DNA from: Bolinopsis microptera
Lineage: Eukaryota; Ctenophora; Tentaculata; Lobata; Bolinopsidae
Reading direction: 5' to 3'
Assembly (NCBI RefSeq): GCF_026151205.1
Contig: NC_087081.1
Location: forward strand, 12,153,113 to 12,217,112
Length of the DNA: 64,000 bases
Shown here: in pieces, positions 1-45,738 of the stretch
How the letters are laid out: every line of letters begins with the position of its first letter
Position numbering within the stretch: position 1 is the first letter of the stretch
Translations under genes and position numbers: made by a program
The notes under the pieces: model-generated
Database searches by the model: none
The model's input: the letters and a program-made list of their open reading frames with translations, nothing else
Told to the model about the DNA's origin: nothing

Positions 1-2608
1 GGTACATATATGAGCTAAGATGAACCTGTCGTCTCAAATGGAGAGGAAGCCATCCCATATTTTTGTATACATTAACCGACCTCTCTCTGATGTTTACATC
101 TAGGGCTATTTTAGCAACCTTTTTGTACATGATATCTAACTCTCCTAGTCGTTTTTTATATGTTCTTGACCAGATGGTGTCTAAGTAGTCAAAATGTGGC
201 AACATAAGTGCATTAGCAAACATCTTCCTGAACTTAAGAGGGAGAAGTTTTTTTGATCTATACATAGCACCAATTCTTTTGGATATCTTTTTCTTAATGT
301 TATCAATATGTTCATTAAATGTCAATCTGCTGTCAACTATAAGTCCAAGGTACTTATGGGATTTAGTTTCACAGATTACCAAAGTAAGGTCATCACAAAT
401 TTCAACAAGGATGGCATCAAGGTTAGGCTTAGAGTCAAGGATCATTAGTTTTGTCTTTTCATTATTCAGGGATAGTTTATTAGCCTGAAGCCATCTGATA
501 ACTAATTTCAACTCTTGTTTGATGTTACCATAGTTTCCTCTAGATATATTGTCAAAATATAATGCACCGTCATCAGCAAATAGATAAGGTTTAGAAAATA
601 GGCATGCATTAGGCAGGTCATTGATAAAAATGCCGAATAGAATTGGTCCTAATATACTTCCTTGAGGCACTCCAGAGTTCAATGAATGTAAACTGCTTAT
701 CCTACTCCCAACTCTAGTTTGCTGTAATCTATCTGTGAGGAAGCTCCTAAACCAGCTCAATGCAGTATCTTTTATTCCATAATGCTTCAGCTTTTGAATG
801 AGAATATCATGGTTAACAGTATCAAATGCCTTTCTGATGTCCAGGAAGATAATTGCAGGATGCTTGGCACTGTTCTTAGCAGTAAATATACGATCAAACA
901 GATCTAACATGAGATAAGTTGTAGAGTGATCTTTACGGAAACCATATTGATGCTCTGAAAGTATTCCCTTTTCATCAAGATATTGAGTCAGTTGGGAGTT
1001 CACACAAAATTCGATGCACTTTCCAAGAATCGGTAAAATTGAGATTGGTCGATAATTACTAGGATTCTCAGTATCACCATCCTTATGGATTGGGGTGACT
1101 TTTGCAACCTTGCAGCTGTTTGGCATGATGCCACTGGATAAACTCAAATTTACAAGATGTGTTAATGGAGCAATAAATGCAGGTAAAATTTGTCTAAACA
1201 CTCTCAATGGTATATGATCATTAGTGGATTTGCTACAAGGGATACTTGCCACATAGTCTAAGATATTGGACTCAGTTATTTCAGTAAAGCTATTCAAGCT
1301 GGTCTCGTTGTCAATCTGCTCATTTTGTAGATAAGATAGAAATTCATTTTCATTTTCCAGCTGCACTTCTGCTTGGATCTTTGGACCTATTTCAGCAAAA
1401 TATTTATTGGTGGTTTCAGCATCAAGATTGTTATTGATATTGTTAGCTTTAACAGGCAGATTTGATGCTGTCTTTATCGTTTTCCATACACCCTTTAGAT
1501 CATTCATGGCACACTTGGCTTTCAGTTCTGTTGCTAAGTTAGTCTTCCTATTAATTCTAGACAAATAGGTTGAATAGTTTCTCTGCCGTTTATATGCCAT
1601 CCATAATGAGTCACATTTATTACAGTGTATAAGACCATTTGGATGTATACGTCTGTTCTTGTTGTGTGTTAAAAATTTACGGTAAAGTTTCCCTTTCAAT
1701 TTCTTACTTTCTAAAAATTCTGGAGATGGCTTATGGATGTAATCACTATGGCACTTAATTTGTTTAATTGGACAGAAGTGATCATAGTAGTGATCAATAT
1801 GTTCGTTTAAACCATCAACTGCATCATTCAGACTAGTTGAATCTATTATTGGTCTATAATCACAGGTTTCCAAAAATTCTTTAAGAGCCGTAACATTCAT
1901 TTTGCTGTGATCTCTTATTAGTAACTTCTTGAATTTTGAGGCCTTATGCACATTGAAATCGACAATGAACTTTACGACCTGATGATCTCCTATACAATCA
2001 TCAAGGACTTTGCAGTCAAGAAACTTGGAGTAAGTGTTTGTTATGACAACATCGATTGTGGTCTTTGTGATTCTGTTTCCTAGTTTAGCAATGCGGGTAA
2101 TATCCTGAACTACCTGTACCATTCCAAACATTTTCATTGTAATGTCTAATTTCTTATAGTTCATACTGCTGATGTTGTTTTGGTCTACATTTACATCACC
2201 CAGCCAAATAACATTCTTACTTCCTATACTCATCATGCAGTCTGTCATATAATCTAAAAATTTGTCAAGAGGACTAAACAACTCAGATCTGTAGAAACAG
2301 CAGATGAAAATATTGCAATCTGTAAGATGGATCCAAATAGCCTCGATTTGGTCATATTGCAAAACTAAGTTTAGTTGAATCATTTTAAACTTTATGTGCT
2401 CACTGATGAGAATGCCACATCCCCCATGACCATTGTCGTTAGGACGGTCTTTGCGGATAAAAGTAAAATTCTTGGGTAGGTTTAGACTGGCTGAGTCAAT
2501 ATCCGACTTAAGATTTGTTTCATTCAGGCATAAAACATCTAATTTCTCTTTCCAGATTAGATCTTGGATTTCAAGACATTTTGGCATACCTGTTAGTCCT
2601 CCCTGCAT
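1..2608 (-). CDS. LINE A ORF2: endonuclease-reverse transcriptase, partial
   Basis: Reading from the first in-frame ATG (2608; the frame is open back to a stop near 2722) the frame runs about 869 codons without interruption to the window edge. The N-terminal part shows endonuclease/exonuclease/phosphatase motifs: LCLNETNL, the metal-binding GDVNVD, and IGDHQVV where most relatives have SDH. The RT follows with KVTPIHKDG, NYRPISILP, FLDIRKAFDTVNHDIL, GVPQGSILGPILF and the catalytic LFADDGA near 565-580. The C-terminal thumb region ends in MGWLPLHLRRQVHL at the edge. This protein nicks target DNA and reverse-transcribes the element RNA (family knowledge). Translation may start by reinitiation after ORF1. 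The C-terminus is missing here. Confidence 0.9.
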   Translation of the reverse strand, partial: MQGGLTGMPKCLEIQDLIWKEKLDVLCLNETNLKSDIDSASLNLPKNFTFIRKDRPNDNGHGGCGILISEHIKFKMIQLNLVLQYDQIEAIWIHLTDCNIFICCFYRSELFSPLDKFLDYMTDCMMSIGSKNVIWLGDVNVDQNNISSMNYKKLDITMKMFGMVQVVQDITRIAKLGNRITKTTIDVVITNTYSKFLDCKVLDDCIGDHQVVKFIVDFNVHKASKFKKLLIRDHSKMNVTALKEFLETCDYRPIIDSTSLNDAVDGLNEHIDHYYDHFCPIKQIKCHSDYIHKPSPEFLESKKLKGKLYRKFLTHNKNRRIHPNGLIHCNKCDSLWMAYKRQRNYSTYLSRINRKTNLATELKAKCAMNDLKGVWKTIKTASNLPVKANNINNNLDAETTNKYFAEIGPKIQAEVQLENENEFLSYLQNEQIDNETSLNSFTEITESNILDYVASIPCSKSTNDHIPLRVFRQILPAFIAPLTHLVNLSLSSGIMPNSCKVAKVTPIHKDGDTENPSNYRPISILPILGKCIEFCVNSQLTQYLDEKGILSEHQYGFRKDHSTTYLMLDLFDRIFTAKNSAKHPAIIFLDIRKAFDTVNHDILIQKLKHYGIKDTALSWFRSFLTDRLQQTRVGSRISSLHSLNSGVPQGSILGPILFGIFINDLPNACLFSKPYLFADDGALYFDNISRGNYGNIKQELKLVIRWLQANKLSLNNEKTKLMILDSKPNLDAILVEICDDLTLVICETKSHKYLGLIVDSRLTFNEHIDNIKKKISKRIGAMYRSKKLLPLKFRKMFANALMLPHFDYLDTIWSRTYKKRLGELDIMYKKVAKIALDVNIRERSVNVYKNMGWLPLHLRRQVHLSSYMY

Positions 2609-2879
2609 GTTGCAATGTCCCACTGCAAGCTTTTTGGCATGGTATGAAACTGTGATTTTACTAATGCACGGGTTAATGCAAGAACTGCTGTGAGAGCATG
2701 AAAATTTTTCCAATTTATGCTGCTATAAACTTGTCAGAATAAGATAAATTGCAGAACTGGCAAATTTGTATGAGATAATAACAAAACTTTCTAAAACTTC
2801 AATAAACATGAGGAACAATGTGTAATTATCCCTTATCTAGAATCTAGATGAAATAAATGTTAACAATCTTTCTGAAAAT
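2609..2879 (-). other. Inter-ORF region of LINE A
   Basis: AT-rich spacer between ORF1 stop and the ORF2 ATG. The ORF2 frame is already open from about 2720, so an upstream non-ATG start is possible. Nothing else is seen. Confidence 0.5.
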
Positions 2880-4754
2880 TCAAACTTGCTTATGGGCCCA
2901 ATACTTCAGAAATTTAGCAAGTCGAATAACACCGCTTGTATTGAGGTGACAGTTATCAGATATTTTTGCAGATGGTCTGGCAAAATAAAATTCTTTCCTG
3001 AATCCACTTCTATTATAGTTAAATAAATTATGGGTGCTAATGTAATTAAAACAAGAATCTTTGCTACACATATCCTTAATAACCTTATTCAGCTCTGCCA
3101 CAACATCATTGCGGCCTTTTGTACTCCTGGGAAGAATATTGAGAACATTAATTGTTGCATTCGGATACACTGACTTGAGATAATTTAAGAGATTACTAAT
3201 GTCACCCGCTGCATCCTTCAGTGACTTTGAGCCAAAATAGACTGTGTTCACATTATTAGTTCCTGTCATAATATAAATAATAGATGGGGATGGAACGGAG
3301 TGTAGGTCAGTTTTTAGTTTATTTAACATTACTTTGGCATCAGCCCCAGGATAAAACAGTTTACTAGCACTAACAGTGGACGATGATAACTTGTCCGCAT
3401 CAAGAAACCTTAACATAGAGCTGCTTATGAATAGGACAGACTTTTGTGAAGCTTTGGCTGGCTGTTTGCAAACTGAGAGTGCAGGTGAAGAAGAGTCTGT
3501 CAGTTTGTGTCCTGAATGAGGGATGGGTGGGGGCGGTGAACGCAGACCAAACTCAGTTGACTGAGTGATCCTAGGGGGCTTCATCAGTCTTAGGGTGATG
3601 CTGATCCGGGGTTCATCACACATTTCGTCTGGCAGTATCTCATGTTGAAAGTCAGCCTGAGACAATTTGGACATGATGAAGACATCTCCATGCTGAAGCT
3701 GCACAGAGCCCACAACTTCATTGCTGCCGTTTGATCTAATTTGCAGTGTTCTCGTCGCACCAAGTGAAATGGTTACAATATCAGAGTGTTCTACAATACA
3801 TGATTCAGAATCGCTATGAGCTGGCATGAACTCTGCTCCAGTTTCATATAGATTGACGAGAATACTATTGTGTCTGAAATTGGGTAATATCACATTAATG
3901 TAGGAGCTGAGTTTAGCAAGGTAGGAATCATTGTGTACACTTTTTGGGTCATGTGTTGCACCTGAATACTCATAGGGAAAGTCACCAAAATAAACCGATT
4001 TCCTGTTTTTAAAGCCGTGACTGAACTCAAGTTCTTCCATTAATAGATCAAGTGAAAATTTAGAGAATGGACCATCATCTAGTAGGGTAACTGGTTTCAC
4101 TGGTGATGGGGAACAAGTTACAGATATATTCATTGGCCCCGGTGTTATAGGATCGTAGACAGGGGCAGGGACCAAGTTTGGATATTTGTCTCTGGGCTTA
4201 GGGGTGTTGATCCGTGATTCACCAGTAGCAGTAGATACAGGGAGATCAGACACATCATCCTCGTCTGCCATAACCTCGTTAACAACAATCTCACTGATAA
4301 CAATCTCGTTTCCAACAACCTCCTGTGGAACAACCTTGTCCACGACATCGTTGTCAACAAACAAACTGTCCGATACAACATCTTCCACAACAATGTCATC
4401 TACATCAAACGCTTCTACTTGATTGATAACAACGTGTGACTGAGGGGTAATGGTTATGATCTCACATTCAATCTCCTCTGATAAGTTCGGCAGCAAATTT
4501 TCACACTTAAAACTCTGTTCTTGTATTTGAGTTTGATCTGATATGAGACTATCATTGTACTGAGCAATGAGATCACTAGTTCTGATAATTTCATTCAATA
4601 AAGACAACTTTTTTTCTAAAAAGTCAATCTTGATGTCTTTTGACAGACAATTGTTACAGTTCTCTGATTTTTCAGACTGGAATGAAAAGTTCAAATGTTC
4701 TAAAGGGCGCTCACAAAAGTGGAGACTAATGTCTGAGCTCTGATTATTTGACAT
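2880..4754 (-). CDS. LINE A ORF1: AlkB-like dioxygenase fused to SGNH esterase
   Basis: 624-residue open frame. Residues about 40-75 are charged and probably coiled coil. Residues 112-161 are a low-complexity acidic/valine stretch (repeats such as VVEDVV and EIVVNEV). Residues about 228-393 carry the AlkB-type 2-oxoglutarate/Fe(II) signature in order: NLYETG, H313-x-D315 (PAHSDSE), SLGATRT, H371 (FQHEI) and R383-ISITL-R389. A proline-rich linker leads to an SGNH/GDSL-like esterase at about 438-620, with VLFISSSM as block I, GTNN (498-501) as block III and D600-NC-H603 as the last catalytic block. Esterases are known in CR1-type ORF1 proteins; all AlkB metal ligands appear to be kept here. A role in demethylating element RNA or DNA is inference only. 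Confidence 0.85.
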   Translation of the reverse strand: MSNNQSSDISLHFCERPLEHLNFSFQSEKSENCNNCLSKDIKIDFLEKKLSLLNEIIRTSDLIAQYNDSLISDQTQIQEQSFKCENLLPNLSEEIECEIITITPQSHVVINQVEAFDVDDIVVEDVVSDSLFVDNDVVDKVVPQEVVGNEIVISEIVVNEVMADEDDVSDLPVSTATGESRINTPKPRDKYPNLVPAPVYDPITPGPMNISVTCSPSPVKPVTLLDDGPFSKFSLDLLMEELEFSHGFKNRKSVYFGDFPYEYSGATHDPKSVHNDSYLAKLSSYINVILPNFRHNSILVNLYETGAEFMPAHSDSESCIVEHSDIVTISLGATRTLQIRSNGSNEVVGSVQLQHGDVFIMSKLSQADFQHEILPDEMCDEPRISITLRLMKPPRITQSTEFGLRSPPPPIPHSGHKLTDSSSPALSVCKQPAKASQKSVLFISSSMLRFLDADKLSSSTVSASKLFYPGADAKVMLNKLKTDLHSVPSPSIIYIMTGTNNVNTVYFGSKSLKDAAGDISNLLNYLKSVYPNATINVLNILPRSTKGRNDVVAELNKVIKDMCSKDSCFNYISTHNLFNYNRSGFRKEFYFARPSAKISDNCHLNTSGVIRLAKFLKYWAHKQV

Positions 4755-4990
4755 AGTTATATTATCAAGAGTTCAATGTTCAGAAGCACAATAAACACTG
4801 TAAACACAATACCTTCAGTCCAGATAGTAGTTTTGATGAGAATAGTTTTGATGAGAAGGAGGAGGATGAGTAATCTTCAAGTACACTCACAGCAGTCCTT
4901 TGCACGTCAACACTTACGCTCGTCTATCATATCTCATACCTCAATAAATGTAATAGATTTGTAGTGTTGTAATTAGTTTTAAAATCAAGT

Positions 4991-6234: not shown

Positions 6235-8035
6235 ATTCAAAAATATACATTCATTTTATTTTATTAAAGACTTTCTCACACATACTTTTCTCACAGAACA
6301 AGACTTGGAAAACACTAGACTAGGGGAATTTCGCTGACATGTGTGTGACCAGCAAGTAGTGATCTTTCGAAGACAATATTGTTGCAGTCAAAATCTTTGA
6401 TTGTCCAATCAAGCGGGGCGTGGCTGTGTTGATTATTTAATAGTGCACGTTTAAGCTTTCCCCGCAAACACATCACACTCATGGTAAAGTCATCCATTCT
6501 AATTTTTGGAGTAATCATGTTAAAAATTTTGGTTGATCTTGTATTATGGTTATCAGGTGGGTCAGCCTGACAAATAAGTAGGGTCGGCTTCCTTGTCGAG
6601 CATGTGTAGCCTTCATGTAAGGATATTGGAGCACGAAATTTCATTATCTTGTAGAGCTCGAGGTAACAGTGGTATGTATAGAGATTTTGGATAGCTAGGA
6701 TATTATTATGTTTGAATAGCGGTTTAGTATGTTCTTTTATGAAAAACTTGTTGTTAAGTCTTTGGTGCCCTATTGGTCTGGTACGTGCACAGGTCTTAAA
6801 CTTATCAAGGTAAGCCTCCCTATCACCGAACATAACCCTAAGACAGTACTTCTGGGCGGTAAACAGAGAGCTTATACGATGCTTCGCTGCCCCACCCCAG
6901 ACAGATATACAGTAAGAGAGATGGGATTCAAACAAAGTATAGTATAGTTGTTGATGTAGAAATTCTGGAAGGGAGCAGCGAAGTCGACATAAGGTGGAAG
7001 TGGAATGATTTAGATTTCGCTTAAGGGCTTTAATGTGTTCTTCCCATGAAAGGTTTTCATCAATTATAACTCCAAGGAATTTAGTGGATGAAACTTTTTT
7101 TATCGGAAAGTTGTCTATAGTAAGTCCTACTTCATCATCTGATAGAGTCTCTGACTTAGAACCTTTCATGGGAGGCTTGAAGTGTATGTAGCAGCACTTG
7201 GACATATTTATATGTAACTTATTTGCTCGCATGTAAGACTGCAATGATGAAAGAAGCTTATTTCCACGTTCATAGGCCTCACGTTTTGTTTTTCCTACAA
7301 CAAATATATTGGTATCATCAGCAAATGTAACAAATGATCCTAGTTTAGAACTGTTTGAGATGTCGTTCATGTAGAGGAGAAATAGGAGAGGTCCAAGTAT
7401 TGAACCCTGCGGGACACCAAATTGAATAGATAGGGTGTCTGATTTTTCTCCCACAACTTCGGTGTATTGTAGTCTATTTGTTAAGTAGCTTTTTATAAGG
7501 TTATTTGCTACTCCTCTAATTCCACAGCCCTCTAATTTTATAAGTAGTGTTGAATGGTCGATAGTGTCAAAAGCTTTGCTTAAGTCAATGAATATTCCTA
7601 GAACATGATTCTTGAGTTTAAGAGATTTTGTAATTAAATCTACAGAGTAATTGACTGCATGAGATGTAGAATGGGATTGCCTAAATCCAAACTGTGTCTC
7701 CGATATGGCTCCTTGAGAGCTAACAAATCCGTATATTCTTGAGTAAATGAGCTTTTCGAAGATTTTACCGAAGACAGACAGTGTGGATATAGGACGGTAG
7801 TTCTCAATTTCTTCAGGGTTACCTTTCTTATATACAGGTGTTATCTTACCAGTTTTCAGGACATCTGGAAATATACCTTCGGCCATAAGGATATTGATGT
7901 AATTTGATAAGACCGGTGCAATTATATGAGATGACTTTTTTATTACACTTATTGGAATGTCACTAGCTTTGCCGTTTTCAAACTGATTTATAATTTTCAA
8001 TATTTCGGTCGGGGAGCAATCTTCTAGCAATTTTA
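6235..8035 (-). mobile_element. LINE B, 5'-truncated non-LTR retrotransposon
   Basis: The 3' end is near 6235-6260, where the minus strand carries AATAAA-type signals after the RT stop. The 5' end stops at about 8035 in an AATTTT repeat, so the endonuclease and all of ORF1 are missing. This is the usual result of incomplete target-primed reverse transcription. It is a different lineage from LINE A: the RT motifs are only distantly similar. Confidence 0.8.
6315..8030 (-). pseudogene. LINE B reverse transcriptase, 5'-truncated copy
   Basis: 571 codons, opening at a TTG directly after an in-frame stop, so the real start is lost. RT motifs in order: KITPVYKKG, NYRPISTLSVFGKIFEKL, FIDLSKAFDTIDH, FGVPQGSILGPLLFLLYMND, catalytic TFADDTNIF, KFLGVIIDENLSWEEHI, and a C-terminal YCISVWGGAAKHRISSLF. 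The RT itself is uninterrupted, so the copy is young, but without endonuclease it cannot move on its own. The same VWG-AAK-SLFT-QK signature occurs in the decayed fragment at 33.8 kb, which is probably a relative. Confidence 0.85.
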
Positions 8036-8039
8036 ATTT

Positions 8040-8386
8040 TAATTATTAGATTATGCGGATGCACATTTTAATTTTGGTCATAGATTGTTTGGAAAATATA
8101 AATAAATGATAAATATATTACAACAAACCAAAATAACTGAAATGTTACTAAACGAAATTCCGGATCAATATAATAAGCGCGAGCGCCGCGCGCAAAACTA
8201 TATTGTGTACCATACTGGTTTAGCCTGCTAATATAATACTATACAGTTCACGTTGTATTGCAATTGCATACCTTTTACGAAATTTTAGAAGGGGGCCGCC
8301 ACGAAATAAATTGTTGTTAATACCAATTAAGTTAATAAGTTATATTGCATTGTATGTTGATTCACAATGCCATGAATCCTTCGCAG
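8040..8386. other. AT-rich spacer, no gene seen
   Basis: No coding signal. It contains a short GC-rich phrase at 8178-8200 (GCGCGAGCGCCGCGCGC) like others in the repeats at 9.19-9.24 kb. Confidence 0.3.
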
Positions 8387-8497: not shown

Positions 8498-8678
8498 TTA
8501 TAAATTATAAAACAACAGCTTACTTTTATTTATTAAACTCAATCATTAATGAATTAAATTTATAGTTTGTAAATTATTTTTATAATCATATTGGCATGGC
8601 ATGTTTTAATATTCAAAATTAGTCCAAATACCAAATTAAATTATTTATAATTCATCACTCTGGCAAATCACTGACCGG

Positions 8679-9113
8679 TAATTATTGTAATTATTGTAAT
8701 TATTGTAATTATTGTAATTATTGTAATTATTGTAATTATTGTAATTATTGTAATTATTGTAATTATTGTAATTATTGTAATTATTGTAATTATTGTAATT
8801 ATTGTAATTATTGTAATTATTGTAATTATTGTAATTATTGTAATTATTGTAATTATTGTAATTATTGTAATTATTGTAATTATTGTAATTATTGTAATTA
8901 TTGTAATTATTGTAATTATTGTAATTATTGTAATTATTGTAATTATTGTAATTATTGTAATTATTGTAATTATTGTAATTATTGTAATTATTGTAATTAT
9001 TGTAATTATTGTAATTATTGTAATTATTGTAATTATTGTAATTATTGTAATTATTGTAATTATTGTAATTATTGTAATTATTGTAATTATTGTAATTATT
9101 GTAATTATTGTAT
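8679..9113 (+). repeat. (TAATTATTG)n array, about 48 copies
   Basis: Near-perfect tandem array of the 9-mer TAATTATTG over 435 bp with almost no variants, implying recent expansion. It sits between the two copies of the dispersed repeat at 8387 and 10139. Confidence 0.97.
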
Positions 9114-9289
9114 TGTTAAATAATTATATTTTACGGAGCTGCTTAATTTACTAGTTGATAAATTGCTTTGACCATTGTTACTGGTCTGGACCGGCGCGCG
9201 CTACTTCGATCGAAGAGAGAAGAAAGCGCGAGCGGCGTGCGCTACTTCGAAGAAATTTAGGCGAGTAACATTCGTCAATACTTTACTCT

Positions 9290-28200: not shown

Positions 28201-31200
28201 ATGTCTTGTAAGGTAGTGATAAAATTTAGAAATCGATCGGATATCCGGCTTAGGAAGTAGTTTAGAAGGCGCTTGGCCGGATATCAATCAGAAATTTCAT
28301 TAATTTTCAGGAAATTTGTTCTGAAAAATATTTTCATAATAATCAAAGTCACATGAAAACTGGAGAAAAGTGGTTTCCAGGAAAACTTTTTAAATGTTTT
28401 ACTAAGAAAACTTATAAATTTTCGGCCCGAGTTATTCTAGATATGTACCTCTATTAAAGCAGACTCCCCGCTTCCGAACTCGTATTGCATAGGTTAGGCC
28501 GGCCATTCAAGATTGCATCACAAAGGGGAAGCCTCGATTCCAATATCGTATATCGAGGAGTAGGTCTGGAATTCAGAAAACCAAACAATTATTTTCGGCT
28601 CATAATGATCAGGGCGACATGAACTGTGGAGAAAAGTAGTTTCCACGAAAACTTTCAAAATTCTCGCGCCGAACATTTCGTAATTTTAAAGGCAGACTCC
28701 GGTCCCCGCTCCAAACTCGGATTTGCATAGGGGAAGCTTGCCCTCCGAGATCGCATTACAAAGGGGAAGCCTCGACTCCAAGATCGTATATTATATCGAG
28801 GGTGAGGTGGGGACTTCGAAATCGAGATAGAAAACATGAAATCTCGGTTCAAATATTTTTACAGAATTTTTTCATCTTGGAAAGGCAAAACGTTTAGTAC
28901 ACCAAAATTATGATATATTTGAAAAACAAATTATTTTACAATTTTTACAAAATTTATACAAGGCCAGGGAGGACCCTTGTGTTCGAGCTGGAAAATTGTT
29001 GATGGGTGAATGACGATAAAAGGGCAAAAATTGTCTTTTGGTGTTCGAAAAGATAATTAGATTCTAGATGAATATTGTATTTAAATTATTTCATCCATTA
29101 AGGCCACAGGGGGGGGGTCCGAGGTCAATTTTGAGATTTTGAGATATGTTGTAGAGCTCGATCTAAATTTTCAAATGCTTTTGTCCTTACCGAAAACAAA
29201 GTTTCCTATTTGAAGATATCGCGCGTTGAATTTTGAGGTTTACCTGTAATTCTATTGTAAATGAAAACTTTAAATGCAATTGTGTTCAAAATCTATCTTC
29301 TTTTTTAGTTTATGACTTAGAACCTTGTAACTTGCCAACAATGTTCTTAAAGGTATTTTGAGTTTTTGTTATGTAACGATTTATGATATCTTGCTCCAAA
29401 GCTGAGATATGAGGTTAACCATGAGTGAGAATTACAAAATTTACAAAATTTAAAATGGTTAACCTCATAAAAAGAGTTAGGAGCAAAATTACAACAATCG
29501 TTACATAACAAACTTTTAAATTTATGTCAGGAACATAAGTTCCAAATTTGAGGTGAAATGGATAAAAGCTCTAGGAGAAGATAGGTTTTTGAGGTGGTAA
29601 ATAAATTGTTCAGGAGAGTCAAAAGACCATGATTCTGAGAAAATATGTTAACCTCAATTTTCCAACAAATAAAGGACATATAATAGTTCTGTTCACATTG
29701 GATGGCCAATTGATACCCATTGATAAGTTTAACTTGTGACGAGAGCAACAAAATGTTAAGAACTGGTTATTTGTGAGGTTAACTGATTAAAAAGGCAATA
29801 GTTAACCTCAATTTTACGACAAACTAGGCGCTCTGGGGGGGCTAAGGGTGGTGTGCAAGCGTCAGATAGTACGTGGTCTGCCAACTGGCAAAAAACTTTT
29901 TTTCGACCTCGGACCCCCCCCCCTGTGGCCTTAAGGCCAACATTTTGTAAAAAATTAGGTTTTTTACATTTTTAAATGACATAAAATGGAGACTTTTTCT
30001 ATGGAAAAAATATAAAAACCCTTAAGTAATTCTCCATTTTATGCCACTTTATTATTATATGCCAATTCTTCTCAGGTGCGAATAAAAGCGGACGGTATAG
30101 ATCATCTTTGCGGTGGCTCTCTCATCTCTACAACTGTAGTACTCACAGCAGCACACTGCGTCACTATGGAGGACGGATCCGTAGTACCAGCACAAATGGG
30201 AGTCCTAGTGATGGGAGATCACACAAATAGTACTGAAGAAGCAGAGGAGAAAAGCTACAGAGCAGTGCGCATCATCGTACACGAGGAGTACCATCTTGAT
30301 TTCACAGGAAGTAAGTGAGGTTCACTGAGTGAGGTTCACTGAGTGAGGTTCACTGAGTGAGGTTCACTGAGTGAGGTTCACTGAGTGAGGTTCACTGAGT
30401 GAGGTTCACTGAGTGAGGTTCACTGAGTGAGGTTCACTAAGTGAGGTTCGCTGAGTGAGGTTTGCTGAGTGAGGTTCGCTGAGTGAGGTTCGCTGAGTGA
30501 GGTTTGCCGAGTGAGGTTCACCAATTGAGGTTCACTAAGTTAGGTTCACTAAACTAACACGTGACGATTGTGAAATTTCCTGCATCAAATTGCAAATTTA
30601 ACCAATCAATTTCAAGTTTAACATACTTTTTTCAGTCCCTATCCACGACCTGGCATTGATCGTACTGTCTACGGAGGTTGACATAAACGCTGGAATAATC
30701 GACATTATTCCGGTAGCGGAGAAACCCTATGTAGAAGGATCCGCTGTGACAGTCATAGGGTGGGGAGTTGACTCAGATGATGATGCAGATAGGGATGAAT
30801 GGGGGTATCATCCCGCTGCTGAAACCCTTCAAGAGTTGGAATACGTGATAGGTAACCAGGCCGAATGTAAGCAATACTGGAAGGACTTGTATGAAGGATT
30901 TTATGCTATGTTCGAGAACCTTGAGGTGATGAACATGGATACGATAACAGGTTTGTTTTTCATATTCTTATATAATTATCTTTGCAGTTTGCTGTCACCT
31001 TCTGCGGTGTATTTCTTTTTTCAAGTGCATGAAAACGACAGGAACATTTTTGTCACCTCCCAAGTAAAAGGGTATATATCTCTAAAAAGTCCATTTTGAG
31101 ATAATCAATAAAAATCGTTTGTTGCTTACAACTAAAGGACTGGGAAACAAGTTCCTGCTGTATAGGCAAGTGTCCCGGGTGAAGAATTAGACAAAGTATT

Positions 31201-34200
31201 TATTTTCAGTGACACCTCTTTGTGAGTCATAAAAATGGTAGTAGTAGATGAACATATTATACCCTTTTAACTAAATTTTTCAAGTTATTTTTATGGAGTA
31301 TATCTCAACATATACCCTTTTATTCATTAATGATTGGTTGATTTATCGAACAATTAATGATAATTAAATTTAAAAGGGTATATATAATGTATGCTTTTCA
31401 CTATAAATGCTTGATTTTTCATAATTGTGTGCTAGGAGATGACTCCCATCTTTTGGGAATAGTTGGCCATTGGTACTAGGACTCCAAAAAAGGGTACAAT
31501 TAGAAAGGGTATATCTTGACTTAAAAGCTTAAATACCTTTTACTTGGGAGGTGACGATTTCGTGAAATCAGATTTAGATGATATTAAAATGTCTGTAAAC
31601 CATAACATCTCCTCAGAAACGATGGTCTGTGCGATAGATGATGAAGGTTTAGCAACTGTATGGAGTGGTGATTCAGGAGGCCCCCTATTTCAGGAAGTTG
31701 ATGGAACAATCACACAAATCGGCGTGGTAAGCTGGGGTCATGATGATATAAAAGAAATAACCCACAACATGTACGTGAATCTCTACCACTATGCTGACTG
31801 GATTAAAGAGGCGATGAAACGTGCAGAGGAAAAGTCCTGGGTAGAACTACACACGGGTGGAAGCCATGGTGTGGTAATGATGATAAACTTGTCCCAGGAT
31901 GGTGATAAAGAATTCACAACCGTTTGTAACGATAACGTTGGTGCAAACGAGGTCAATGCCATTTGCAGAGGACAGGGCTACCAATTCGGAGCTCTCGCAA
32001 ACATCAGAGACTACGTCTCTGGTGGTAAGAGGCAACGAAGTGAGATGGGAGGATTCCCACCATTCGGGCACATAAATATGAAGTGTAATGATGAAGCCGA
32101 AGATGTAATGACGGATTGTGCAATGGATAAGTACGAAGACTCTGAAGTACCCTGCTTTAACGGACAACAACTGGCTGTCAAGTGTGCTGACGAAAAATGG
32201 GACTTTAATATTGTTGCCGTGTTGCCCGTTATGAGGAGTATCAGAGGGTCAAGCTATGTTAGGGGAAGAGTCAGTTGTATGGTGAATGCTCAGAAAGATG
32301 GAGTGGATCTGGACATGAAATCTCAAGTTAAGGTCGGACTCGTCATGAGAAACGAAGATGCTGTTGAGCCCATTGGTTCTCCTATGAAGTACAGGAGGAG
32401 TTCAAACATTTATGTTGGTAAATTCAGAACCGATAACGAAATCAAGACAGACGACTGTTTGGCTTGCATCGCCTACATTCCAGGGCACAATATCTACACT
32501 GTAGGAACGGTCGGCCCTGATGATTGTCCTGATGACGACGAACATTATAAGACGTGGGTGAAACTTCAAAATGAGGGAGAAGGGGAACAATAGCGGAGAT
32601 GGATCATATAAAAGCAGAAGAAAAGGGAGGCTATGATACATGAATGAATTCTATAGTTAGAGACTTTATAGTTAGATTGGAATTAAGGACTGACCAACAC
32701 ATAAATCATACTTAAATGGTAATATGATACAGCAGAGCTAGAGAGTACAATGATAGTTTTATTTTATAAATTATTAGGTATTAAACAATAAACATATTTC
32801 TCGTGGACAGATAGAAATAAAATGCACAAATTTACTATTTAGAGTAAATTATAGCATGTACAGTAGCTAGGCTATTATAACATTAACTACGTACATGTAT
32901 ACTTATAATAACTCATTTTTCAGTAAACCTAGTATTACATTATAATTATAATAGGGAACATAATATATTTATGTTTCATCGCATTTAATATCAGATAGTT
33001 GCTTGTTCTATTTCAGTTTTCAAACCTATTTGAAATATACATACATGTATAACACAGCTACAATAGATCAGAAATCCCAATATTATCTGCAATTTTTCAT
33101 TTTATACAGTGACCTATGAATAGATATTGTTTTATAAATATTCCTCGGTAAATTTAATTTTTTTAAAATGCCTTTTTATTTTGTTTTCCAAACAGCACCC
33201 TCAACCAAAGTTCTCATAAGAGTTAAGACAAAATCACTGTCTGATAGCACAGGATGTTGCTAAGTAACTAAACTGACCCTCTACAATGATCCAACAATGA
33301 AATCATAAAATATATATTATGATATTTTTATATATTAGGCGTAATATTCGAAAAAAAGGGCCTGATATTTGTGCATGAACACGATCTGTTAATGTAATTT
33401 TCATAAACGTACGATACAGATTACAGATGATACGTTTAAAGTTTTTTAAACATGAAAACATAGCCGCATAATATGATAAAATGAAATTATTTTGTAGTAA
33501 ACACGTTAACCTTGCCAAAAACAATTTGAAAAATATCAGGACTGTTCCAAAAAACAATGGGAGATAATCAACGGCCTGCTAAATAGAAAAAGACGGGAGC
33601 TGATCAGATCAGATTGAGGGATACTGACGGGACGGCTGTCGCTGAAAAGTTCAATGGGTACTTTTCCAGCATCGCAGCCAAAATCAAGTCTCAGATCAGT
33701 TACCGAGCCGTCAAAACAACAATGTTACGATATATAGGCGTTATGTTAAAAATAAACACAAATTACCGATCAAAACACGCGCACGCTTACTTAAATGTCA
33801 CTAGTTTGGGGCTTTGCTGCAAAATCCCACATTGATTCACTGTTCACTAAACAAAAGCAGGGAATACGAACAGTTATGTCGGGCTACTACGTGAATTACT
33901 ATTACAAGGATGGTAAGCTTCCGGATCACGCTAAAGTTGCGTTTAAAGAGTACGAAATATTATCTGTACACGGGGACATCATAAAAAATGATCTGACTTA
34001 GATGCATAAGATAACTTACATGCCTGGCCTTCTGCCGACGTCGATAAAAGGCTTATTCCATTCTGATATACCGAAGTATGGCACCTGATATGATGACATT
34101 ATCAACTGGCTAACAACATACTCTCAACCAGATCTACGCGCTAGTGTTTTCTATAAAGGTCCTATATTAGCTATTACCAAGCACAACATTAGTCGCATAA

Positions 34201-37200
34201 CTTGCCCATCTAGTATTTTCTCAATTAGCATTTACAAGAAATCAGCAAAGCGTGTAATGATAGAACTACAAAGCTCATGAAACAATGAAGAATGGCCATC
34301 TTTTCTTTTACATAATTTACCCGGGCTACGAAAATCAGCAAGATCAGGCACACAGCAAATCAACTACCGAGAATAACCTAAGGAATAAGTAAAACTAGAC
34401 GATTAGCACACTAGTCACTATCAACCATATGTCACACTTTTCACTGCCCATTCACTGTCATATATTGATAGCGCTAGCAGGTGCTGATAAGACATGGGCT
34501 CATTTACTTGTATTTATTAAGCAGTTAAATCTATGTGAAGTGTGAATTGACCATAGTAGACGAATTCCTCAGCTAGAAAACTTAAGTCATGGATATTCAT
34601 TTACAATGACAAGATTAAAATTCCAGAATAATCGAATTATTTCAACAATTTATGAGCAGTGACCTTTCTTTTATACACTACGAATTTTGTTTACCGTCCT
34701 GTCTTTGGCTTTGGCTTCAAGTTTAATATTCATTAGTTGGAATTTATTTTAATCCTACTTATTGGCTGAACTCGAACTGCTTCATATAAGCCAATAGTTG
34801 TCACGTGATTGATACTGCAGAAATTGCGTCCCACATATATTACTGTGCTGACGTACGCGTTAATTTGCAGACTTTTTTTGGTGATTTTCAGCGATATGGT
34901 TTTAAAGTATTGTACTGTAATCCAGTCGATCGCTTCACGTTTTTGTATTCGAAATTTAATCTTTAACCCAAAAATTAAACTTTCTTCCTTATTCAATATT
35001 ACTATTTAAAGTATATTAATCTAAGGTGTCTCCTGGTATTATTTCGCGAAAGTCGAATAATGGTGAGTATCTACCAACAATTTTTTGATTTTTTATATTT
35101 CTTGAAAACGACACCCATGTCGCTTCTACATGACTGAAATCAATCTACCATTAAATATTCGATTTAAATTCAAAACTATTTCTTCAAAAATATTTTAAAT
35201 GATATGTTATCTGCAGAGTACTGTACGATTACTGCTGGTGGTATTTGCCATCCAGCTTGTAGCTGGATGGCGCCAAGAAGGAGGGCCAGGGAAAGCATTG
35301 GATGGTTTGGATAAGGCTCAAAAACATATCATTAACGGTCAGGATGCCGATAAGAACGAGTATCCGGGTATGGTGAGTGTAAAGTCAAGTGAGGGAGAGT
35401 GTGACGTCACGTGAGGTAGAGTGTGACGTCATGTGAGGGAGAATTTGAAAGCAATGATGAAGTGTGCAGGGAATCTTATATCACAAGGTTTTAATGCTGA
35501 ACTGACTTGACAATTCTTCTCAGGTGCGAATAAAAGCGGACGGTATAGATCATCTTTGTGGTGGCTCTCTTGTCTCTACAACTGTAGTACTCACAGCAGC
35601 ACACTGCGTCACTATGGAGGACGGATCTGTAGCTCCAGCACAAATGGGAGTCCTAGTGATGGGTGATCACACGGGCAGTATCGGAGAAGCAGAGGAGAAA
35701 AGTTACAGACCGGTGCGCGTCATCGTGGGGGGGGGGGGGTCCAACCCGATCAATTCCGATCATTCCGATCCCGATTTTGGCCTCATCAACCCTCATATCG
35801 GAAAAATCGGGAAAATTTAAATCTTCCCTCTGAGGTTTCTAGGCGATATAGGTAGCTATATCTGTACTTAAATATGACAAGAAATCGATTGGTGGTGGTC
35901 CCAGAACCCCAAAACGGTATCTTGTTCCAAACAAGAATCGTTTCGTCCGAAAAACAACACAATGTCGTACCAACTCTTGTTTGACAGAAACATCCACCCC
36001 GGTCCACAATTGAAAGAGGTACGGTTGGTAATAACAATCGTAACAAATAGCGAACGCTTTAGTAACTTTTGATTTAAATTGTCTCCACAATTTGTAACAG
36101 GCTATCTGCAGAAATGGGTAGCACGGTTAATGACTATGGTCCTTTCTCAAACTTCCAATCCTCAGTTAGATACAAAGAATAGTCTACACAATTTTCAATA
36201 ACATTAAAAGGGATGAAAATCACTTTATTTATCAAAATCTTTATTTATCATGTAACAACTTTTCCATAGTACTGGAGAGTAAAACTCTGTTAAACAAAAA
36301 AATTCTCGGGCACATTTTGAGTCAGTAACAGTAACATGTCAATATGTTACAGACTCAAATGCGTTTAAAAACATTTTAGTAACAATAAATTGTGTAAACT
36401 GATGAGGAGGAGGAGGAGGACTGAGGAGAAGGAGGACTGAGGAGGACAGAGGAGGAAGACTGAGGAGGACCAGGACGAGCACTAGGAGGATGAGGACGAG
36501 GACTAGGAGGATGAGGACGAGGACGATGAGGACGAGAACTAAGGACGAGGAGGAGGACGACTGAGGAGGAGGACTGATTAGGAGGAGGACTGATTAGGAG
36601 GAGAAGGAAGAGAAGAAGGAGGAGGAGGATGAGGAAGAGAAATGAGGAGGAGGAGGAAAAGGAGGAAGACTGAGGAGAAAGAGGAGGACCGAGGAGGACT
36701 GAGGAGGAGGAGGACTGAAGAGGAGAGGGAGGACTGAGGAAGAGGAGCAGGATTGGTGTGGAGGAAGACGAGAAGGAGGAGGACGAGAGCGAGGACGAGG
36801 AGGAAGACTGAGGAGGAGGACTGTTAAAAAGGAGAAGGACGAGGACTGAGGATCAGGAGGAGGACTGAGGATGAGGAGAAGGAGGACTGGGGGAGGACTA
36901 AGGACGAGGAGGACTGAGGAGAAGGACTGAGGATGAGGAGGAGGAGAAGGAGGACTAGGGAGGACTGAGGAAGAGGAGGACTTAGGGAGGACTGAGGAGG
37001 AGGAGGACTGAGGAGGATGATGAGGAGGAGGACTGAGGATGAGGAGGAGGAGAAGGAGGACTGGGGGAGGACTGATGAGGAGGAGGACTGGGGGAGGACT
37101 GAGGAGCAGGAGGATGACTTAGGAGTAGGAGGAGAAGGAGGAGAAGGAGGAGAAGGAGGAAAAGGATGAGAGGGAGGAGGAGGACTTAGGAGTAGGAGGA

Positions 37201-40200
37201 GAAGAAGGAGAAGGAGGACTGGCGAGGAGGAGGACTGACGAGGAGGAGAAGGACTGCGGAGGAGGAGGAGGACTGAGGAGAAGGAGGAGGAGGAGGACTG
37301 ACGAGTAGGAGGAAGAGGAGGACTGAGGAGGAACAAGATGACGACTGAAGAGGATGAGGAGGATGAGAAGGAGGACTGGGGGAGGACTGAGGAAGAGGAG
37401 GACTTGGGGAGGAGGATGAGGACGATGAGACTGATGAGGACTGAGGAGGAAGACTGAGGAGGATGAGGACGAGGACTAAGGACGAGGACTAGGAGGATGA
37501 GGACAAGGGCTAATGAAGAGGAGGAGGACGACTGAGGAGGAGGACTGATTAGGAGGAGAAGGAAGAGCAGAAGGAGGAGGAGGATGAGGAGGAGGACTGA
37601 GGAGGAGGAGGATGAGGAGGATGAGGACTGAGGAGGACTGAGGAGGAATACTGAAGAGGACGAGGACTAAGGACGAGGAGGAGGCGGAGGACGAATGAGG
37701 AGGAGGAATGATTAGGAGGAGAAGAAAGAGGAGAAGGAGGAGGAGGAGTAGGAGGAGGAGGAGAAGGAGGAGGATTAGGACTGGGGGAGGACTGAGGAGG
37801 AGGATAAGGAGGAGGAGGACTAAGGACGAGGATGAGGACGAGGACGATTATGAGGAGGACAGAGGATGAGGACTGATGAGGAGGAGAAGGAGGAGGAGGA
37901 TGAGGAGGAGAAGGAGGAGGAGGACTGGGGGAGGACTCAGGAGGAAGAGGATGATGACTGAGGAGGAGGATGAGGACTCAGGAGGAGGACTCAGGAGGTG
38001 GACTCAGGAGGTGGAGGAGGATGAGAAGGACTCAGGAGGAGGAGGACGACTATGAGGAGGACTAAGGAGAACTGATGGGGAGGAGAAGGAGGATCAGGAG
38101 GAGAAATGAGGATGAGGAGGAGGAGAAGGAGAAGGAGAAGGAGGAGGACTGGGAGTAGGACTGAGGAGGAGAAGGGGATTGAGGAGGAGGGTGAGGAGGA
38201 CTGAGGAGAAGGACGAGGAGTCAGGAAGAGGACTGAAGAGGACTGAGGAGGAGAAGGACTCAGGAGGAGGAAGACTTAGGAGGAGGAGGAGGAGGACATC
38301 TAAATGTTTTGTCTGTTTTTGTCCGCCCTACTTTTTGTCCGTTTTGAAAATACAGGGTACCGAACGGACACAAAACATGATCCCCCAGCCAAGCATGTGT
38401 TACGATACAAATGTACTTGACTATACATTTAAGGTGCAGTGTACTAGTGATATTATGGTATGTTTAAAGACCGGACCACAAAATATAACCCTAGTGTTGT
38501 ACTAATACATAATAACAAGTAACAGGGATAAAATTAATGAGCAGAAACAATCGATCTCACGTCAAGAGGCCAAAGCACTCGGGTCTGGGAGTACATGACA
38601 ACTCCAACTAGTAGTGAGCATACTAGCCCCTGCAGTGGAAAAACACATAAAACATACTATTGGAATGTCCAATTAGTTCGTTTTCTCATAACAATATAGC
38701 ATATGTAGGGGTTTTTTATCACTTCCTCACTTCTGAGAGGTTTTAGAGATCGATTCTCTAAAATTTCTCAATTTTCCGATTTTTCCGATTCCGATTTTGG
38801 CCTCATCAACCCTCATATCGGACATCGGGTTGGACCCCCCCCCATCGTACACGAGGAGTACCGTATTGATTTGACAGGAAGTAAGTGAGTGAGGTTCACT
38901 GAGCGAGGTTCACCGAGTGAGGTTCGCCGAGTGAGGTTCACCAAGTGAGGTTCACTAAGTGAGGTTCACTAAGTGAAGTTGACTAAGCGAGGTTCACTAG
39001 GTGAAGTTCACTAAGTGAGGTTCACTAAGTGAGGTTCACTGAGTGAGGTTCACTAAACTAACACGTGACGATTGTGAAATTTCCTGCATCAAATTGCAAA
39101 GTTAACCAATCAATTTAAAGTTTAACACACTTTTTTCAGTCCCGATCCACGACCTGGCATTGATCGTACTGTCTACGGAGGTTGACATAAACGCTGGAAT
39201 AATCGACATTATCCCGGTTGCGGAGAAAGCATACGTAGAAGGATCCACTGTGACAGTCATAGGGTGGGGAGTTGACTCAGATGATGATGCAGATAGGGAT
39301 GAATTCGGGTATCATCCCGCTGCTGAAACCCTTCAAGAGTTGGAATACGTGATAGGTAACCAGGCCGAATGTAAGCAATACTGGAAAGGTGGGTATGATG
39401 AGTTTGATGCTGTGGTCCAAAATTATGAGAAGATAGACATTGATACGCTAGCAGGTTTGTTTTTCATATTCCTATACTATCTTTGCAGTTTGCTGTCACC
39501 TTCTGCGGTGTATTTCTTTTTTCAAGTGCATGAAAACGACCTGGACATTTCGTGAAATCAGATTTAGATGATATTAAAATGTCTGTTCACTATAACATCT
39601 CCCCAGATGCGTTTGTCTGTGCGATAGATGATGAAGGTTTAGCAACTGTATGGAGTGGTGATTCAGGAGGCCCCCTATTTCAGGAAGTTGATGGAACAAT
39701 CACACAAATCGGCGTGGTAAGCTGGGGTACTGGTGAAATAACAGAAAGAACCTACAACATGTACGTGAATCTCTACCACTATGCTGACTGGATTAAGGAG
39801 GCGATGAAACGTGCAGAGGAAAAGTCCTGGGTAGAACTACACACGGGTGGAAGCCATGGTGTGGTGATGATGATAAACTTGTCCCAGGATGGTGATAAAG
39901 AATTCACAACCGTTTGTAACGATAACGTTGGTGCAAACGAGGTCAATGCCATTTGCAGAGGACAGGGCTACCAATTCGGAGCTCTCGCAAACATCAGAGA
40001 CTACGTCTCTGGTGGTAAAAGGCAACGAAGTGAGATGGGAGATCTCCCACCATTCGGGCACATAAATATGAAGTGTAACGATGAAGCCAAAGATGTAATG
40101 ACGGATTGTGCAATGGATAAGTACGAAGACTCTGAAGTACCCTGCTTTAACGGACAACAACTGGCCGTCAAGTGTGCTGACGAAAAATGGGACTTTAAGA

Positions 40201-43708: not shown

Positions 43709-45738
43709 TTAGAAGAGATTTTTATAGAATGTTAGAAGTGCAGTAGGGTCAGTTTCAGACGAATTAAGCATAAATGACATCATTGCCATGTCTGAAGTGG
43801 TTTGTAAATGGGCCATTGTTAGCCCCAAGCGTTTTGGTCCCTCATTCCTGCCACTCAGCATTGCCTACTGTAAAGTAGAAATTTTTCTAAGATAATAGAG
43901 AAACTGACCTTGTCTCACTAAATTCAACCACTTACCATAATAAAAATACTAACAACCAAATAAAGTTTTTTAAATAATTATATACAATCACCAAAAATAT
44001 TTCCTCAAGTTTACTTCTAACTAATTTGTGGTTTAAGCTCTTATTTTATTTATGATTAAAGGAATGTAAAATAAAACTTTTCGTTTCATTGAAAACTTTT
44101 CGTTTCATTGAGAAATTGCTGATAATGAGTACAAGAACTCACTCATGGCTAACCAGCAGCTTACAGACCACATCCTGAAGCAACACACCACTCTCAATAC
44201 CAACAGAGAGGCTGGGAAAGCAGTCAAGTCTGCCATTAGCCTGTCTAATGCCAAGAGGTATTATATGAGTCACTCAAAAACCAGCTGATGAACGATCTTC
44301 CACCTTCGATCAGTGAGAAGATCCCACATGCATGAGAAAAAGGTGCATCAAGCTGGCTGACCGGACTTCCCTATGAGAAGTACGGCTTTGTCTTGAACAA
44401 GCGAGGGTTCAAAGACGCTATAGCACTGAGATATGCTCTACCCATTGCCAACATAGCCAAGAAATGCATTTGTGGTAAAGATAACACCTACAACCACATT
44501 CTTATTTGCAAGAAAGGAGGCTTTGTCAACAGCAGACACAACCGACTGAGAGACACTGTTGCAAGCATTCTTGAAAAAATCTGTAATGAGGTTGTTGTAG
44601 AGCCCACACTCCAGCCATGCACTGGAGAAAGCCTTTGCCCTGATACCATCCTGGATGATGGGGCAAGGCTCGACATAGCAGCTAGAGGTCTGTGGTCACC
44701 AATGGAGATGGCATTTTTTGATATCAGGGTTTCACACCCCGGAGCCAAATCCAACGCTAATCACAACACCCCAGCAAAGATGTACAACAAGCATAAGAGA
44801 GAGAGAAAGGAAATATGGAGACCGCTGTGTACAGATCGAAAAAGGAACCTGCAATGGCCTTGTATTCTCGACCACCTGAGGTATGGGCCCACAGGCTACC
44901 ATGTTCCTTAAACGAGTAGCAACACTTCTGGCAGCCAAGACCAGCCAGGAAAAAAGCCTCATTATGGTAAATCTAAGACGTCGTTTGCGGTTTGAGCTAC
45001 TTAAGACAGTATTGATTGCAGTTAGAGGACACAGAGGACGGTATTATGAGAAAGCAATACCTGTTGACGAACTGGACCTAAATCTTGCACACACCACCAA
45101 CGATGAAGACAGGGGTGATGATGTTGATGATGAAGATGATGAAGTTGATGATGAGGTTGAGAATGTAGAGGAAGAGGTTTCAGAAGAGTGAGCTGAAAAA
45201 GAAGACAAGATTCTATTCTAATTTATTGATTATTATATTTATTGCAATAAACATATAATATCCATTACTCCAGGAGTGATGACAGGATATATAAAAAAAA
45301 TTTAAGAGAATATATAAAATTATTCAAACAATATACACATAATATAGCGATGACCCTATATAAAATCTACCCTATAAGAATTAAAAAAGTTTCCTAAAAA
45401 ATCAAAAATTACCCTTGGCCTTGTGGCTCCAAGTTAAGATCTAGACTGTTTAGATCAACAATGTTTTTTCTCGCACCTCTGTCTCCACGGAGAGAAATCA
45501 CTGATGTAAAAAAATGTAAATGTAATTCAGTAATGGATATTCTCTAACTGTAAGGTCAGACGACAGACACCTCTCAAAAATATGATTAAATTAAACTTAC
45601 TTTCGGAGAAAAAAAAGGGAGACCCCAACCCATGTAGCTGAGACACCTCACAGCATGGCAAGTAGACCAAAGTGGCTCCTGCTTGTGAAAGTGTATCAAC
45701 TATCTCCCAGGGATCATTCCGGAGGAAAATGAGGAAAA
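43709..45738 (-). CDS. 3' exons of an unrecognised minus-strand gene
   Basis: Three exons whose phases interlock: 45601-45738 (phase 1 to 1), 45413-45500 (1 to 2) and 43709-43847 (2 to TAA). They read FLIFLRNDPWEIVDTLSQAG, ATLVYLPCCEVSQLHGLGSP, RGDRGARKNIVDLNSLDLNL and finally GLTMAHLQTTSDMAMMSFML through LLTFYKNLF at the C-terminus. I cannot name the family. A likely upstream exon is at 46642-46819 (MSMHDGLMEYSLDLDHSRDN), but its join to 45738 does not keep phase, so another exon probably lies between. Intron 43848-45412 contains a dead retroelement on the other strand. Confidence 0.6.
44120..45191 (+). pseudogene. Retroelement C-terminal domain, decayed
   Basis: Reads GASSWLTGLPYEKYGFVLNK, then a zinc-knuckle CICGKDNTYNHILICKKGG, RHNRLRD, EPTLQP and a PD...D segment (CPDTILDDGARLDIAARG, FFDIRVSHP), then GMGPQATMFLKRVATLLAAK and a strongly acidic C-terminus ending at 45191. 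This tail occurs at the end of retroelement polyproteins in many invertebrates and looks like a CCHC plus PD-(D/E)xK-type nuclease. Damage: an in-frame TGA before GASSW, a frameshift at about 44815-44850 and a TGA at 44877-44879. AATAAA lies at about 45246. Confidence 0.65.

Follow-up and report, generated by a model that had tools for sequence, protein, structure and literature searches.

Predicted AlkB dioxygenase and SGNH esterase domains joined in the ORF1 of ctenophore LINEs and paired again in a Helitron

Introduction

The nearest precedent for the locus described here is an orchid Ty3/Gypsy retrotransposon in which an AlkB-family domain has kept its ligands (PMC9289625). According to the accessible part of that paper, the orchid element is an LTR retrotransposon whose AlkB domain is plant ALKBH5-like and occupies a separate ORF, whereas the domain that we describe is predicted to be ALKBH2/3-like, is paired with an SGNH esterase and lies in the ORF1 of LINEs and in a Helitron. 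For the esterase half, the closest relatives are the type IV (esterase) ORF1s of CR1 and L2 elements such as ZfL2-1 (PDB 4c1b), which likewise belong to two-ORF LINEs and place an SGNH domain at the C-terminus of ORF1 (PMC3905857, PMC4120745). Reticulate ORF1 evolution is common to both systems, and some of the families here have PHD-like fingers. AlkB has no occurrence in the available portions of these two papers, in contrast to its presence here. A 2014 survey, as far as its accessible text goes, found esterase ORF1s in vertebrate groups only (PMC4120745).

Several other systems resemble the present one in part, each as described in the available text of its source. In fungi, dioxygenases with the same broad chemistry have passed between unrelated transposons including Helitrons, but those enzymes are TET/JBP proteins, a different family from the AlkB found here (PMC12730594). 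The Texim SGNH hydrolase of fish Helitrons also links SGNH to Helitrons; Texim, however, is a gene beside the element and the available text has no occurrence of AlkB (PMC4021074), whereas here SGNH and AlkB lie within a Helitron frame. Rotifer GDSL esterase ORFs, common to LTR and Penelope-like elements, are a case of enzyme ORFs crossing retroelement classes, again with no occurrence of AlkB in the accessible text (PMC5408684). Finally, the DNMTs of retrotransposons are nucleic-acid-modifying enzymes that were taken up repeatedly; they write a methyl mark (PMC5890265), whereas the AlkB domain here would remove one.

Results

An AlkB-type domain and an esterase in a single ORF1

The window, that is, the whole stretch of DNA analysed, comprises 64,000 nucleotides of the genome of Bolinopsis microptera. 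The initial annotation had described in it, without giving the strand, an intact 624-codon frame in which a retrotransposon ORF1 fuses an AlkB-type dioxygenase to an SGNH esterase. This frame is present on the minus strand (4754..2880). Its translation, Pfam matches and copies divide the 624 aa ORF1 product (2880..4754) into a variable N-terminus, an AlkB domain, a linker and an SGNH esterase, and profile searches matched both enzyme halves.

The AlkB-type 2OG-Fe(II) dioxygenase core (aa 261-389; 3588..3974, minus strand) is delimited by the Pfam model PF13532, by the PDB match to ALKBH3 and by invariant ligands in an alignment of 11 ORF1s. In the search that the annotation had proposed, the Pfam match to 2OG-FeII_Oxy_2 (PF13532) was significant (3.6e-18 over aa 261-389), scoring 66.9 bits where the cut-off is 31.2; it begins at model position 57 of 194. 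Searched as a single sequence against the PDB, ORF1 matched human ALKBH3 best (8.9e-15, aa 251-393), followed by ALKBH2. A profile built from 11 related ORF1s strengthened these matches to 2.5e-33 for ALKBH3 and 3.8e-26 for ALKBH2, with ALKBH8 (1.4e-12) and E. coli AlkB (5.8e-11) behind them. ALKBH5 was far from being the closest relative (0.07 versus 2.5e-33 for ALKBH3). By these comparisons the predicted dioxygenase is ALKBH2/3-like and only marginally ALKBH5-like, and we infer a double-stranded beta-helix fold for it.

The residues assigned earlier as ligands, H313, D315 and H371 for iron and the R383/R389 pair, occupy exactly those positions. Among the 242 gap-free columns of the 11-row alignment 19 are invariant, 16 of them within AlkB, and all five Fe/2OG ligands are found among the 19 (P 1.8e-6). 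The N-x-Y motif ahead of HxD is more variable: its Y is invariant, and its N is replaced by T in families D, E, G and J and by S in family H. In ALKBH5 this asparagine is a 2OG contact, according to the accessible text of PMC9289625. Comparison with the solved relatives shows a further difference, in that the Pfam match is shorter at its N-terminal side. Much of the base-recognition lid in cellular AlkB enzymes sits in the N-terminal part that is absent from the match, so the substrate preference of the ORF1 domain may differ from that of the cellular enzymes.

The SGNH/GDSL esterase (about aa 437-624; 2883..3446, minus strand) was placed by PF13472, by a profile match to 4c1b and by alignment. 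Two GDSL lipase models matched ORF1 between aa 476 and 614, at 8.5e-05 and 3.6e-04, neither of them reaching its cut-off; the better of these is PF13472 at aa 489-607. The LINE ORF1 esterase 4c1b was a weak match to ORF1 alone (0.059), and the second half of the 11-ORF1 profile matched it at 5.8e-08. Of the esterase blocks, GTNN (498-501) and DxxH (D600xxH603) stood as first described, while block I departs from the usual GDS and reads SSS with the serine position kept. The alignment assigns S446, G470, N500, D600 and H603 as the esterase residues.

The element is a two-ORF LINE with many copies

Downstream of ORF1, separated by a spacer defined by the frame limits (2723..2879, minus strand), lies ORF2 of the same element (1..2722, minus strand), with EEP endonuclease and RT regions. 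The annotation's statement that ORF2 is open was borne out: the frame runs from 2722 to 2, giving 907 aa up to the window edge, and its final 308 bases lie outside the window. The longer locus L009 holds ORF2 as a single frame of 1009 aa, in which RVT_1 scored above its cut-off (2.1e-36) and the EEP matches (Exo_endo_phos 1.9e-04, and a second at 4.7e-04) fell below theirs. Exo_endo_phos was above its cut-off in the ORF2s of families C, D and E.

The limits of the element were drawn by comparing copies. Similarity to seven other copies starts 190-234 bases upstream of the ORF1 ATG, placing the 5' end at about 4988 and the 5' UTR at 4755..4988 (minus strand). The window copy and 39 others have a common 3' end, at about C10:12152402, and each of the 40 matches that were scored out of 104 candidates, among them the window copy, reaches at least base 459 of the 461-base 3' query. 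The element thus measures about 5.7 kb, from about 4988 to 1 of the window plus 711 bases past its edge. No clear target site duplication was seen by eye at either end of the window copy, of which the 5' end is approximate.

The organism's own genome (264.65 Mb in 232 contigs) contains at least 81 ORF1 matches, with 71 of 1007 candidates scored. At least 20 copies, the window's included, cover ORF1 from aa 1 to 622 or 624, free of stops and 99-100% identical, so that copies of the element are apparently intact. Other matches start late, for instance at aa 168, 207 or 482, as in 5' truncation. Taken together, sequence comparisons identify the window element as a two-ORF non-LTR retrotransposon (LINE) whose predicted ORF1p joins an AlkB dioxygenase to an SGNH esterase.

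Another RT frame in the window (8042..6315) was considered as the partner ORF2 and rejected: its position is 5' to ORF1, and it is part of another LINE. It encodes 575 aa on the minus strand (6315-8042), with the EEP part not in frame, and is 55% identical to family J over 153 aa, 40% to family G over 402 aa and 34% to the ORF2 of the present element over 371 aa. The ORF1 of family J has the order PHD-AlkB-SGNH.

Related fusions occur in many LINE families

The idea that AlkB might be confined to the window copy, with decayed ligands in its relatives, is contradicted by matches genome-wide. PF13532 has at least 151 matches in the genome (150 of 587 candidates scored), and all of those listed pass the cut-off. 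The same fusion, which the annotation had proposed to look for, is present in other copies, and in many LINE families of this genome. The full ligand motif lies in an open frame at 57 of the 62 loci read, namely 54 transposable-element loci, some of which overlap, and three host genes; because loci were picked as best matches, this census is biased towards intact copies and is not a random sample. The five others comprise L054, L061 and L062, which have no AlkB region, and L040 and L059, where the AlkB region is incomplete or broken.

Relative to family A, the family of the window element, the AlkB-SGNH region is 41-43% identical in families B and C and 32-34% in D and E. Outside families A-E, regions were chosen among the genome matches, a minority of the 151 being read. 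They gave AlkB matches of 1e-13 to 1e-23 in families F (L046), G (L047), H (L048), I (L049), J (L052, L053), K (L060, cut) and M (L063). SGNH exceeded its Pfam cut-off in family M only (Lipase_GDSL, 24.6 against 23.6 bits) and stayed under it in families A-G, I and J (L052). For H (L048), L053 and K, where no SGNH model matched at 0.05, the assignment relies on motifs and alignment. The ORF1s of H, I, J and K contain a PHD-like finger (0.0003-0.007, all below the Pfam cut-off), for which there was no Pfam match in families A-G, M or the Helitron described below. No RRM or CCHC model of Pfam matched the ORF1s of families A-K and M.

An adjoining downstream EEP or EEP-RT frame was found in families A, B, C, D, E, F, G, J and M, the family B frame being outside the Pfam scan. 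Among families A-D, ORF2 identity is 50-55%, except for 98% between B and C; the ORF2s of A-D share 28% with G and 20-26% with J, G and J share 25%, and F shares 24-28% with all others. By ORF2 identity, the predicted cassette is therefore carried by LINEs of at least four groups.

Three individual features were noted among these loci. In families B and C (L010, L011, L013, L015) the first 140 ORF2 codons contain no ATG although the EEP region starts immediately, so ORF2 may be initiated differently. A family C copy at L011 is flanked on the minus strand by an AlkB-SGNH fragment (1569-2189; AlkB 1.1e-07) and then a PHD-EEP frame (2-1258). At L053:2-2320, a 5'-truncated family J LINE lies in frame behind an RT that by eye looks Penelope-type; the Pfam match there is to AlkB only.

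Element AlkBs and the host ALKBH genes

Among the loci read are three host genes of ALKBH2/3 type: L055 is ALKBH2 (3.9e-60), and L056 (2.5e-39) and L057 (2.6e-27) are nearest to ALKBH3. The host genes are only 25-27% identical to the window AlkB. In a tree without family F, made before family M was added, the element AlkBs were separated from the host genes and human ALKBH3 with support of 100/99. Compared with ALKBH3 and ALKBH2, the repair enzymes that are its best solved relatives, the ORF1 domain thus belongs to a clade apart from host ALKBH2/3 (without F) and forms part of an ORF1p.

Family F sits on a long branch, and its position varied between trees. It grouped with host ALKBH2/3 in one tree (98/94), whereas in another the element sequences including F were set against the host at 85/79; in the tree with family M it fell at the base of the transposable-element clade (91/84). 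The AlkB of family F may represent a second uptake.

A Helitron carries SGNH and AlkB in the opposite order

Two of the loci, L050 and L054, lie in one frame of 3388 aa in which the order is SGNH-AlkB, opposite to that of the LINEs. Pfam detected SGNH (6.7e-06, below cut-off), AlkB (3.7e-21), DUF6570, Helitron_like_N (5.6e-23) and PIF1 (4e-22). AlkB of this type occurs at 11 loci with 77-100% identity; the Helitron parts were read at one locus. At the end of the 1548 aa frame of L054, after the helicase, there is by eye a cysteine-protease-like stretch, without a Pfam match.

Among the families compared, the closest to the Helitron AlkB is that of LINE family M (41% identity; 100/99 in the tree). 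A tree that grouped the LINE AlkBs (without F) to the exclusion of the Helitron was rejected with p-AU 0.0015, as against p 0.109 before M was added; the LINE-only clade tested had been named after a first tree was seen. In the tree with family M, the Helitron AlkB nests among LINE AlkBs. The Helitron SGNH, in turn, best matched the ORF1 of the window (22%, 1.6e-06). With the SGNH nearest to the window ORF1 and the AlkB nearest to M, SGNH and AlkB may have been acquired separately.

Both domains are under constraint

The AlkB part is under purifying selection, with dN/dS of about 0.13-0.17 between families (Nei-Gojobori). Averaged over families D (16 copies) and E (5 copies), AlkB had dS 1.01 and dN 0.13, a ratio of 0.127, and a single D-E pair gave 0.14 (bootstrap 0.08-0.24). 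For B against C, AlkB gave a ratio of about 0.17, with dN equal to that of the N-terminus (0.23-0.25) and below that of SGNH (0.43). Within families the AlkB ratios were 0.23 for D and 0.24 for E, and family A held too few differences.

For the linker, the D-E ratio was 0.36, or 0.31 (0.12-0.78) in one pair. The dN between D and E reached 0.23 for SGNH and 0.64 for the N-terminus, with dS near or at saturation in both. In one D-E pair SGNH had a ratio of 0.09 (0.05-0.19, with 329 of 1000 bootstraps undefined), which indicates that SGNH is constrained too; since this is lower than the AlkB ratio for D-E, dN/dS does not single out AlkB.

ORF1 and ORF2 have been exchanged

Two pairs of families combine near-identical ORF2 DNA with strongly diverged ORF1s. 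DNA identity between family B (L015) and family C (L013) is 98.2% across the 3475 bases that begin shortly ahead of ORF2 and reach the 3' end; for other B/C pairs it is 97-98%. The ORF1s of L015 and L013 are only 52-80% identical per 100 bases, with an abrupt change at L013:4037. In families D and E (L016/L041; about 430 ORF2 codons compared), ORF2 identity is 94% from about 140 bases and 98-100% from about 240 bases past the frame start, as against 39-82% per 100 bases in ORF1. Correspondingly, dS between D and E is 0.054 in the near-identical part of ORF2 versus 0.92 in AlkB. These contrasts point to an exchange of ORF1s, and ORF1 and ORF2 have recombined at least twice, whichever half moved. 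Reticulate ORF1 evolution has been described in CR1, L2 and Jockey elements (PMC4120745, accessible text).

Other features of the window

Weak matches to the AlkB profile at 39877-40062 and 31887-32072 (0.003-0.004) lie inside trypsin-SRCR frames and were taken as chance. These frames belong to two similar trypsin-SRCR genes (30602-32593 and 39534-40577), with Trypsin above its cut-off and SRCR just below. On the plus strand, 33587-33998 contains LINE ORF2 profile fragments (7.8e-09 and 1.6e-05), and 44336-44911 a frame of 191 aa with a CCHC-like motif, by eye an R2-type end with a restriction-like endonuclease, without a Pfam match. Long simple tandem repeats at 8623-9154, 36376-37666 and 59655-60381 are open in several phases.

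Discussion

We tentatively favour, while giving it somewhat less than an even chance, the reading that an ALKBH2/3-like repair module keeps the single-stranded RNA or cDNA of the element readable. ORF1p would coat the RNA of the element, perhaps along with the first-strand cDNA. Its AlkB domain would oxidatively strip Watson-Crick-face methyls (1-methyladenine, 3-methylcytosine) that would otherwise stop the element's RT, and the esterase and N-terminal region would have the roles in assembly or membrane contact that have been suggested for other ORF1ps with an esterase. ALKBH2 and ALKBH3 act on m1A and m3C, and these lesions block reverse transcription. Given the ALKBH2/3 affinity of the domain, repair fits better than m6A erasure, short of proof. 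Helitron transposition passes through ssDNA. If LINEs (RNA) and Helitrons (ssDNA) alike need a single-stranded intermediate free of blocking lesions, that need would explain the domain in both. Since ALKBH2 and ALKBH3-type genes are already present in the host, what an element gains from its own copy is not obvious. The wider proposal, that an exchangeable direct-reversal repair cassette is common to unrelated element classes and clears methyl lesions from RNA, cDNA or ssDNA, appears plausible but doubtful. If it is true, transposons carry their own nucleic-acid repair.

As the main rival to repair, the AlkB domain could erase a regulatory mark, such as m6A on element or host RNA or 6mA on DNA, allowing escape from silencing or decay. 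Such a role has been proposed for the orchid Gypsy AlkB, which demethylates m6A in ssRNA in vitro (PMC9289625), and for the TET/JBP genes of 11 fungal DNA transposon lineages (PMC12730594), both as given in the accessible text of these papers. Repeated sharing among unrelated elements is also what an arms race leads one to expect. The distance of the domain from ALKBH5 (0.07, against 2.5e-33 for ALKBH3) argues the other way, as does its presence in a Helitron. Helitrons are not known to transpose via an RNA copy, although their mRNA or DNA could still be a target. On balance we regard mark erasure as somewhat unlikely.

Another reading is that ORF1p retains AlkB for binding nucleic acid or for assembly, with its catalysis dispensable. 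In its favour, the ORF1s of families A-K and M matched no RRM or CCHC model in Pfam, and esterase ORF1ps in RepBase lack an RRM (PMC3905857, available text). Mere binding would not need the five catalytic ligands, all of which are invariant (P 1.8e-6), and we consider this improbable. There is likewise a small chance that the target is host material, either the target site or host chromatin. The PHD-like finger of H, I, J and K, a chromatin-reading type detected below cut-off, is consistent with this, but families A-G, M and the Helitron keep AlkB without a PHD match. That a host ALKBH gene or pseudogene was fused by an assembly error or a single insertion is scarcely credible: the fusion is found in at least 20 full-length copies on many contigs with one common 3' end, related cassettes occur in many families, and the host genes are separate and 25-27% identical. 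We accordingly rejected an assembly artefact or host gene fusion.

Among the papers listed in a search of the open-licence literature (titles and the beginnings of abstracts, with subscription journals, bioRxiv and Repbase outside its scope), none reports AlkB in a LINE or Helitron; an earlier report is possible. Viral contigs, searched with the protein alone in a way that detects close relatives only, yielded no relative.

Repair of the element's own RNA or cDNA, our preferred reading, can be approached with the material that this genome offers: many intact copies, natural ORF1 swaps on near-identical ORF2s and clear ligands make the need of a transposon for a demethylase or repair enzyme directly testable. 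The predicted domain extends LINE ORF1s to a further class of enzyme and, being common to both, links LINEs and a Helitron. The host is a ctenophore, and ctenophores have been put forward as the sister group of all other animals. The occurrence of AlkB in several unrelated lineages of jumping genes within this one genome suggests that methyl removal helps these elements to copy themselves.
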